Below are positions 6,290-7,195 of a DNA stretch of 16,820 bases, piece after piece (the first letter of the stretch is position 1; each line of letters starts with the position of its first letter). The stretch is from Desulfovibrio sp. OttesenSCG-928-G15 (GTDB lineage: Bacteria; Desulfobacterota; Desulfovibrionia; Desulfovibrionales; Desulfovibrionaceae). The stretch lies in the NCBI GenBank assembly GCA_030266525.1, contig JAJDIC010000047.1, positions 1 through 16,820 on the forward strand, written 5' to 3'. The notes under the pieces were generated by a model. That model had not been told where the DNA came from, made no database searches, and saw only the letters and a list, made by a program, of their open reading frames with translations. Made by a program: the position numbers and the translations under genes.

Positions 6290-6454
6290 AAAAAGGAAAA
6301 AGCCTTTGGTTGGGGGGAACCAAAGGCTTTTGCGTGAAGGGGGTCTTCACCCGTCCGGCAAATAAAGGAGGGACCGGACATTTATAGTGCTTCCTGACGC
6401 ATCCTGGGGGGAAGGATGGGGCGTGGCTGGGGGAAACCGTACCCATGCAGGTAC
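6290..6454 (-). ncRNA. candidate sigma-54-dependent sRNA with C-rich hairpin loops
   Basis: The RNA would start near 6453-6454, 12 nt from the -12 element of the sigma-54 promoter, and end in the U tract after the terminator at 6298-6331, about 160 nt in all. Five hairpins are visible on the minus strand: GTACC/GGTAC (6439-6454, at the very 5' end); CATCCT/AGGATG (6400-6418) with loop UCCCCCC; GTCCGG/CCGGAC (6353-6379) with a 15-nt loop containing CCCUCCUUUA; GTGAAG/CTTCAC (6334-6350) with loop ACCCC; and the terminator with loop CCCCCC. A single-stranded UUUCCCCC lies between the first two. The two open frames inside it (starts at 6446 and 6381) lack ribosome binding sites and run through the terminator. 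C-rich loops are typical of sRNAs that bind Shine-Dalgarno sequences. I do not recognise a named RNA family. Confidence 0.72.
6298..6331 (-). terminator. strong intrinsic terminator of the sRNA
   Basis: A perfect 14-bp stem: AAAAGCCTTTGGTT (6298-6311) and its complement (6318-6331), with a 6-nt loop (GGGGGG on plus, CCCCCC in the minus-strand RNA). On the minus strand it is followed by TTTTT-CC-TTTTT, the better of the two U tracts; on plus only TTTT follows. No plus-strand gene lies upstream of it, so it most likely ends the sRNA. Confidence 0.88.
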
Positions 6455-6464
6455 TCTCTATTAA

Positions 6465-6479
6465 GCAACAGTCGTGCCA
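6465..6479 (-). promoter_or_regulatory. sigma-54 (RpoN) -24/-12 promoter
   Basis: The minus strand reads TGGCACGACTGTTGC, a full match to the RpoN consensus TGGCAC-N5-TTGC, with the invariant GG and GC separated by exactly 10 nt. Predicted start near 6453-6454. Because sigma-54 promoters need an ATP-driven enhancer-binding protein, transcription here should be signal-dependent. Confidence 0.85.
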
Positions 6480-6561: not shown

Positions 6562-6575
6562 GTGCGTTTACGCAC
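6562..6575. promoter_or_regulatory. palindrome, candidate enhancer-binding-protein site
   Basis: GTGCGT-TT-ACGCAC is a perfect dyad whose centre is about 115 bp upstream of the inferred sRNA start, the usual distance for activators of sigma-54 promoters. The binding protein is not identifiable from the window. Confidence 0.5.
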
Positions 6576-6683
6576 GTAAGGAAATGTGTGCGAATTAGAA
6601 CGACATTGTGGAGGGGTGGTGTTCGAAGTCGCACATAGGGCACTTGCTGAGCGTTATCGCACGCATGCAGGCACCCGTCAACG

Positions 6684-6764: not shown

Positions 6765-7181
6765 TTATTTCTTTGCTCTTTTGCCGCCTTTGGGGCCTTT
6801 TTCGGGTTTGCAGGAGTTGAACTCATCAAAGCTCAACTGACCGTCCTTGTTCGTGTCGCATTTTTCAAAGAAGGCCCTTTTCCTTTCATCGCGGCGCTTG
6901 TCGCGGTGAACGCGCATTTCATCGCGGTTGATCATCCCGTCATTGTTCGTGTCGATTTCTTTGAACCGGGCTTCGCCAAGGCGAGGATAGCAAGCCGCGA
7001 ATTCGCTGATTGAAAGAACGCCATCGCCGTCTTTGTCGCACTGGGCGAAGCCGGGCCGTTTGCCTTCTTTTTTGCCGTGGCGCGGCCCTTTTTTATCTGT
7101 AGCCTGGGCGTCCTGGGCGGTGAAGAGCGCGCCGGTTGCGAAAAGAGCGGCAATAGCAATGGCGGTGGTAAGTTTTTTCAT
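6765..7181 (-). CDS. secreted three-EF-hand protein with cysteine-bracketed calcium loops
   Basis: The ATG at 7181 is set by an excellent AGGAGGG 7 nt upstream; the longer open frame to 7367 crosses the predicted promoter. The product is 138 residues. MKKLTTAIAIAALFATGALF and AQA (about 25-27) form a typical Sec signal peptide, giving a periplasmic protein of about 111 residues, very rich in lysine and arginine. Three EF-hand loops are clear: DKDGDGVLSISE (49-60), DTNNDGMINRDE (77-88) and DTNKDGQLSFDE (109-120), all with D at 1, D at 5, G at 6 and E at 12. Loops 1 and 3 have Cys immediately before (C48, C108) and three residues after (C64, C124); loop 2 has none. It probably binds calcium in the periplasm. 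It lies next to the MarR-BaeSR operon, which suggests an envelope-stress role, and its ribosome binding site is complementary to a loop of the adjacent sRNA. Confidence 0.92.
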   Translation of the reverse strand: MKKLTTAIAIAALFATGALFTAQDAQATDKKGPRHGKKEGKRPGFAQCDKDGDGVLSISEFAACYPRLGEARFKEIDTNNDGMINRDEMRVHRDKRRDERKRAFFEKCDTNKDGQLSFDEFNSCKPEKGPKGGKRAKK

Positions 7182-7188
7182 CGAACAA

Positions 7189-7195
7189 CCCTCCT
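7189..7195 (-). promoter_or_regulatory. strong ribosome binding site of the EF-hand gene
   Basis: AGGAGGG ends 7 nt before the ATG at 7181 and fixes that start. It is a perfect complement of the CCCUCCU loop of the candidate sRNA (6366-6372). Confidence 0.85.

Follow-up and report, generated by a model that had tools for sequence, protein, structure and literature searches.

What is encoded between the genes for an EF-hand protein and an M23 peptidase in Desulfovibrio sp. OttesenSCG-928-G15, where a sigma-54 promoter points into a stretch that looks empty? The locus lies in a DNA segment of 16,820 nucleotides (contig JAJDIC010000047.1), referred to here as the window. As judged from sequence comparison, it holds a conserved small-RNA gene under sigma-54 control, for which a dedicated sigma-54 activator apparently serves as the switch. 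Comparison among genomes supports the gene, its strand, its fold and terminator, the promoter, the array of upstream sites and the link to the activator.

Promoter and terminator at the locus

By sequence inspection and folding, the minus strand from 6479 to 6290 begins with a sigma-54 promoter of consensus type, continues with hairpins whose loops hold C runs and closes with a terminator that has a 14-bp stem (Table 1). According to their Pfam domains, the flanking genes encode an EF-hand protein (7181-6765) and an M23 peptidase, whose start was placed by eye at about 6054. The window is Desulfovibrio-type DNA, and the best match found for its M23 peptidase (51% identity) is in a Desulfovibrio MAG.

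The full-consensus RpoN promoter described in an earlier, sequence-only reading of this DNA is indeed present on the minus strand: TGGCACGACTGTTGC is the single exact match to TGGCAY-N5-TTGC in the whole window, and a sigma-54-type promoter is kept in all 13 homologues described below. When one mismatch was allowed, two matches were found in the window versus 4.2 expected in shuffles, so that the promoter motif by itself is little proof. The minus strand folds better than its own shuffles (z -4.73, 0/200 shuffles). The perfect 14-bp terminator stem with a double U tract, which had been noted about 120 bp on, was found as well; the stem is followed by TTTTTCCTTTTT and lies about 122 nt after the predicted start near 6453.

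Table 1. Predicted features of the C-loop RNA locus (window coordinates).
Feature	Position	Strand	Basis or remark
Upstream activator site 1, GTGCG-N4-CGCAC, 1 mismatch	6649..6662	-	predicted
Upstream activator site 2, 1 mismatch	6621..6634	-	predicted
Upstream activator site 3, 2 mismatches	6588..6601	-	predicted
Upstream activator site 4, no mismatch	6562..6575	-	predicted
Sigma-54 promoter TGGCACGACTGTTGC (-24/-12)	6465..6479	-	sigma-54-type site at the same place in 13/13 homologues
C-loop small RNA gene	6297..6457	-	span of covariance model; start predicted near 6453
Three-way junction, outer stem around H1 and H2	6393..6451	-	suboptimal in window, conserved in relatives
H1, loop UCCCCC (6434-6429)	6419..6444	-	folds, covariation, loop comparison
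H2, loop UCCCCCC	6400..6418	-	folds, covariation, loop comparison
H3, loop CCCUCCUUUAUUU	6353..6379	-	folding, covariation, loop comparison, 16S comparison
H4, GUGAAG/CUUCAC hairpin	6334..6350	-	covariation; loop not conserved
Intrinsic terminator, 14-bp stem (6331-6298), CCCCCC loop, double U tract	6290..6331	-	

Homologues and compensatory changes

Relatives of the RNA were searched for in a family of 288 genomes, reached via G001, the genome with the Desulfovibrio MAG that carries the closest M23 match. BLASTN (E≤0.01) matched 19 of the 288 genomes. Twelve matches of just 22-36 bases were left out, and the seven genomes with matches of at least 80 bases (G001, G121, G126, G127, G129, G131 and G132) provided, together with the window RNA, a covariance model (R1) that ran from the predicted start on and excluded the promoter. 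R1 matched 38/288 genomes at E≤1. Its strong set comprises 13 matches in 12/288 genomes with E≤3.8e-16, the next match being at 2.0e-5. Six of these are new with respect to BLASTN (G124, G125, G128, G130, G133 and the second match of G127), and all six have TGGCAC-N5-TTGC directly upstream, though the promoter was absent from the model. The promoters of the 13 homologues are of three types, with seven TGGCAY-N5-TTGC, five CGGCAC-N5-TTGC and one TGGCAT-N5-CTGC. G127 has two dispersed strong matches, each with promoter and activator sites (G127:C10:49945-50099, L062; G127:C104:14265-14419, L061).

A second covariance model, run at the level of the order (348 genomes), recovered these 13 matches and, far more weakly, a tandem pair in G118 (1.6e-7 and 2.0e-7), each member with its own sigma-54 site. 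This pair was one of 27 weak covariance loci checked; the other 26 (E 2.2e-6 to 0.013) have no adjoining sigma-54 site and were read as chance terminators. Eleven further weak loci, among them L079, which is shared with the earlier 27, likewise have no sigma-54 site beside the match. At one of these eleven, L157 of G117, a C-run multi-hairpin RNA candidate with C8 and C7 runs was seen by eye on the minus strand at about 1400-1800, without sigma-54 site or activator array; it is possibly a relative of the C-loop RNA under another promoter.

The stems are conserved in the relatives with compensatory changes. In an alignment of 14 sequences, which was fitted to the R1 structure and hence is biased towards it, 90.5% of 698 cells are paired, and both sides have changed at 37 of 51 pairs (105 cells; shuffle mean 33.8 cells, 0/500 shuffles as many), with at most 24 cells in slid controls. 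A plain MAFFT alignment of eight sequences gave 13 pairs changed on both sides, a number reached by 2/500 shuffles, and 19 cells versus 8.5 in shuffles (0/500); further pair types were not above shuffles in this alignment (30 vs 31.8). Homologues, compensatory changes and the conserved promoter thus back the earlier proposal of a sigma-54-driven, multi-hairpin C-loop small RNA.

An Rfam search of the window returned no family at the gathering cut-off (its best weak match scored 25.3 bits where 55 were required), and a search of 13 relatives returned no family for the RNA, 6C included. The one match among these relatives was an FMN riboswitch outside the RNA in L104 of G021 (L104:3518-3677), shortly after an activator-linked C-loop RNA.

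Conserved C-rich loops

Seen by eye, the minimum-energy folds of all 13 relatives consist of the three-way junction followed by H3, H4 and the terminator. For the window RNA, this junction fold lies 2 kcal/mol above the minimum and is thus suboptimal (-56.2 vs -58.2 kcal/mol). The hairpin that the sequence-only reading had put first, at about 6454-6439, belongs to the minimum-energy fold of the window RNA, yet it occurs in none of the 13 relatives' folds and is not conserved. Stems and C runs do lie where that reading placed them; however, conservation does not extend to the CCCC loop of the GUGAAG hairpin, and the C-loop of H1 within the junction was missing from its list.

Four C-loops are conserved among the 14 RNAs, namely those of H1 (at least five C in 14/14), H2 (at least four C in 13/14), H3 (CCCUCC in 10/14) and the terminator (at least four C in 14/14). 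The RNA has conserved C-rich apical loops on stable stems, as found in the class of sX13 and 6C/B11. In the window, the loop of H3 has CCUCCUUUA in common with the 3' end of the 16S rRNA as read in the relative G119, the 16S pattern having been matched in 1 of 14 assemblies.

An array of upstream activator sites

Four GTGCG-N4-CGCAC sites form an array upstream of the promoter, and none of 5000 shuffles contained as many. At most one mismatch leaves three sites in the whole window, all within 6562-6662, while two mismatches allow 15 sites, four of which belong to the array. The motif was derived from the same RNA promoters that were later scored, and each of the 35 scored promoters has two or more sites in 250 nt at up to two mismatches (0.01-0.67 expected); the G147 promoter was left out of this set, and G128 entered it with just 172 nt of upstream DNA. 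The motif is common to the window and all 22 scored activator-linked promoters. In G001 the sites lie farther off, at -248 and -234.

A scan of the 288 genomes with the exact two-site pattern matched 24 times, at 17 places spread over 15 genomes, versus nine matches for the reversed-pattern control. Twelve of the 17 places are at RNA promoters already known, and another, in G283, revealed a sigma-54 C-loop RNA that is not linked to the activator and that the other routes had missed. No sigma-54 C-loop RNA was found at the array places in G240 and G263; G021:C340 and G027:C7 lie outside the inspected set. By this strict two-site pattern, GTGCG-N4-CGCAC arrays appear to occur mainly at sigma-54 C-loop RNAs. 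The promoter had been called an orphan, but it does have upstream activator sites, of the kind found at RNAs adjoining one particular activator.

A response-regulator activator linked to the RNAs

The RNA of G001 is preceded, on its own strand, by a gene for a response regulator that has sigma-54 activation and Fis-type domains and carries the motif GAFTGS. Relatives of this activator, whose motif is GAYTGS or GAFTGS and in many cases GAYTGS, are present in 57/288 genomes at E≤1e-90 and in 43 genomes at E≤1e-140. Strong covariance matches occur in 11 of these 43 activator genomes versus 1 of the 245 others (Fisher p 2.6e-9, ignoring kinship). The single exception, the RNA-bearing G121, has no close activator orthologue (best 44%), though the array is present. 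In the window no sigma-54 activator was found beside the RNA.

Downstream DNA was read for 50 (30 loci and 20 more) of the 60 activator match rows, the 10 rows left out being of ≤48% identity. In 20 of the 43 activator genomes, a sigma-54 RNA with C runs and site array lies directly downstream of the activator, with tandem genes in G119 (three; L100) and G118 (two; L101/L070). Most activator-linked RNAs are too diverged for the covariance model. The -12 element is ATGC or CTGC in 10 of the 20 cases, and in the same 10, when the first 170-175 nt are folded at minimum energy, only a single hairpin loop holds a C run, although further C runs are present; the kinship of these RNAs is therefore judged by linkage, array and C runs. 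Among the 43 activator genomes, 12 had no recognizable sigma-54 C-loop RNA, including G213-G216 and G025 (contig ends), nor was any RNA found downstream in seven rows outside the 43 (six of ≤47% identity and a truncated copy in G028). C-run hairpins with 6-9 C follow a second gene behind the activator in G213-G216 (L120-L123), for which no sigma-54 promoter of their own was recognized. A gene for a PAS-type histidine kinase precedes the activator in G024 and G143. Comparison of these loci supports a link, via the site array, between the RNA and a DVU0679-like activator.

Proposed mode of action and its alternatives

We consider it reasonably likely that the locus encodes a stand-alone regulatory RNA governed by a two-component/sigma-54 switch, and that its C-loops pair without Hfq and lower translation at G-rich ribosome-binding sites. 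On the side of the switch, we infer activator binding with control by phosphorylation: a DVU0679-like response regulator (receiver, sigma-54 AAA+ and Fis-type HTH domains; GAFTGS or GAYTGS) would open the sigma-54 promoter once bound to the GTGCG-N4-CGCAC array, which lies some 100-180 bp upstream from the -24 element. The transcript would then fold into a scaffold displaying four C-rich loops, three with C5-C6 and one with CCCUCCUUU, a putative look-alike of the 16S rRNA 3' end. For the RNA itself we infer base pairing, repression and targets, in that the loops would pair in trans, without Hfq, with the G-rich ribosome-binding sites of several mRNAs, which would then be translated less. Hfq was found in 0/15 relatives, 14 of them RNA-bearing, whose assemblies may be incomplete; the control search matched 5/14 known genomes.

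By analogy with sX13 and B11, whose C-loops act on G-rich leaders, the window RNA should pair with G-rich ribosome-binding sites. Among seven leaders of the window compared by duplex energy, a single one, in front of the EF-hand gene, gave a good pairing, with 7 bp and -13.2 kcal/mol to H3, the next reaching -6.4. This leader is CAGGAGGG (window 7165-7195), and its pairing to H3 is a plain Shine-Dalgarno match. On the basis of this model, the EF-hand gene mRNA is a candidate target.

The main rival is that the RNA acts as a sponge for a C-binding protein, its repeated C-loops on variable stems titrating a C-rich-binding protein such as KhpA/KhpB; CsrB titrates CsrA in this manner via GGA loops. 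We regard this as unlikely, although several features suit it: each molecule carries several similar loops, genes occur in tandem copies (two in G118, three in G119), and the C runs of relatives extend up to ten, those of 8-10 fitting poly-C better than a Shine-Dalgarno match. A KH_KhpA-B match was obtained in 15/15 genomes, 14 over the cut-off, but KH proteins are widespread (10/14 control genomes, 6 over the cut-off), so that their presence says little. The H3 loop, moreover, is CCCUCC rather than poly-C in 10 of the 14 RNAs, which suits pairing to GGAGGG.

It is very improbable that the region is a small-protein gene or a leader of the M23 peptidase gene. Two overlapping minus-strand ORFs of 91 and 85 aa do lie between the M23 start and the EF-hand end, over the RNA, and the M23 gene follows downstream on the same strand. 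However, neither ORF has a Pfam match, in agreement with the earlier description of a stretch without a credible gene, and across the 14 RNAs the longest open stretch inside the transcript ranges between 17 and 52 aa. A strong terminator stands before the M23 gene, and the neighboring genes vary among genomes, a purA-like gene being shared by four loci and a gapA-like gene by three (names assigned by eye).

Still less probable is that the functional RNA is read from the opposite strand, with G-rich loops binding CsrA-like proteins. The plus strand would display GGA in its loops, and the folding energies of both strands are similar (sense more stable in 6/14 RNAs); yet promoter and activator sites face the C-loop strand, and the conserved pairs include G-U in 61 cells versus A-C in 18, which identifies the minus strand as the RNA. 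A chance promoter beside an ordinary terminator, with no gene at all, is the least credible reading, since 16.8 kb of DNA will fairly often hold a single near-consensus sigma-54 motif, but structure, promoter and activator sites are conserved in 12 genomes.

The preferred reading, a C-loop RNA that represses by pairing, may be extended, tentatively, to a Desulfovibrionaceae module. Here a dedicated activator would have as its main target class a fast-evolving family of multi-C-loop RNAs with tandem or relocated genes, one loop of the window group would copy the anti-Shine-Dalgarno tail of the 16S rRNA, and the RNAs would form an Hfq-free brake on mRNAs with strong ribosome-binding sites. The locus and its homologues supply a fold, a promoter pattern and a possible way of acting for a class of sigma-54 RNAs of which a single example had been reported, with no known function, in sulfate reducers that gave no Hfq match (0/15 relatives). 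They also point to a switch of its own, enhancer-activated, for C-loop RNAs. With the activator-site array in hand, the regulon can be searched for, and its signal and targets can be put to the test.

Comparison with known systems

Sigma-54 together with an activator also drives the regulatory RNAs Qrr and CrcZ, the former being present in several copies; Qrr needs Hfq, and CrcZ binds it. The RNAs described here differ from both in their C-rich loops and in the result of the Hfq search among the relatives.

In its loops, the window RNA resembles sX13 of Xanthomonas, a structured RNA with C-rich apical loops. Repression by sX13 depends both on the C-rich motifs of its loops and on G-rich motifs close to translation starts, and Hfq is dispensable (PMC3771888). 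In contrast to the window RNA, sX13 has three such loops in 115 nt, and the Rfam search gave no relation between the two. C-rich loops are also shared with 6C and B11. In the accessible portion of PMC10470900, mycobacterial B11 has two C-loops and represses through a leader with six G, and the title of a 6C paper cited there states that 6C acts without RNA chaperones. These RNAs, however, belong to Actinobacteria, B11 with its two C-loops among them, whereas the window RNA falls into no Rfam family.

A search of open-licence PMC found no print report of the C-loop architecture, the site array, the tandem copies or the relocated members. An ncRNA prediction published for O. alaskensis G20 in 2024 contains, in its main text, none of the terms sigma54, RpoN and C-rich (PMC11124144). 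Sigma-54 control of such an RNA had been taken as undescribed in this lineage, but sigma-54 RNAs of the lineage are already reported and not new: the D. vulgaris regulome, in the available text, comprises 36 regulons and includes four sigma-54-dependent non-coding RNAs (Kazakov et al., 2015, PMC4641369). The same text has DVU0679 (GAYTGS) controlling an ncRNA downstream of itself, and in the published table GAYTGS is given for DVU0679 only. The RNA downstream of DVU0679, Dv_sRNA2, is described as expressed and without known function, and two relatives have probable counterparts close to orthologues (Rajeev et al., 2011, PMC3333781). Unlike Dv_sRNA2, the window RNA and the strong covariance matches other than that of G001 were not seen beside the activator. 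Dv_sRNA2 nevertheless resembles the relatives' RNAs as far as these sources go, being sigma-54-dependent and located downstream of a response-regulator activator with GAYTGS, and by this likeness of context, rather than of sequence or fold, it probably belongs to the same class as the window RNA.
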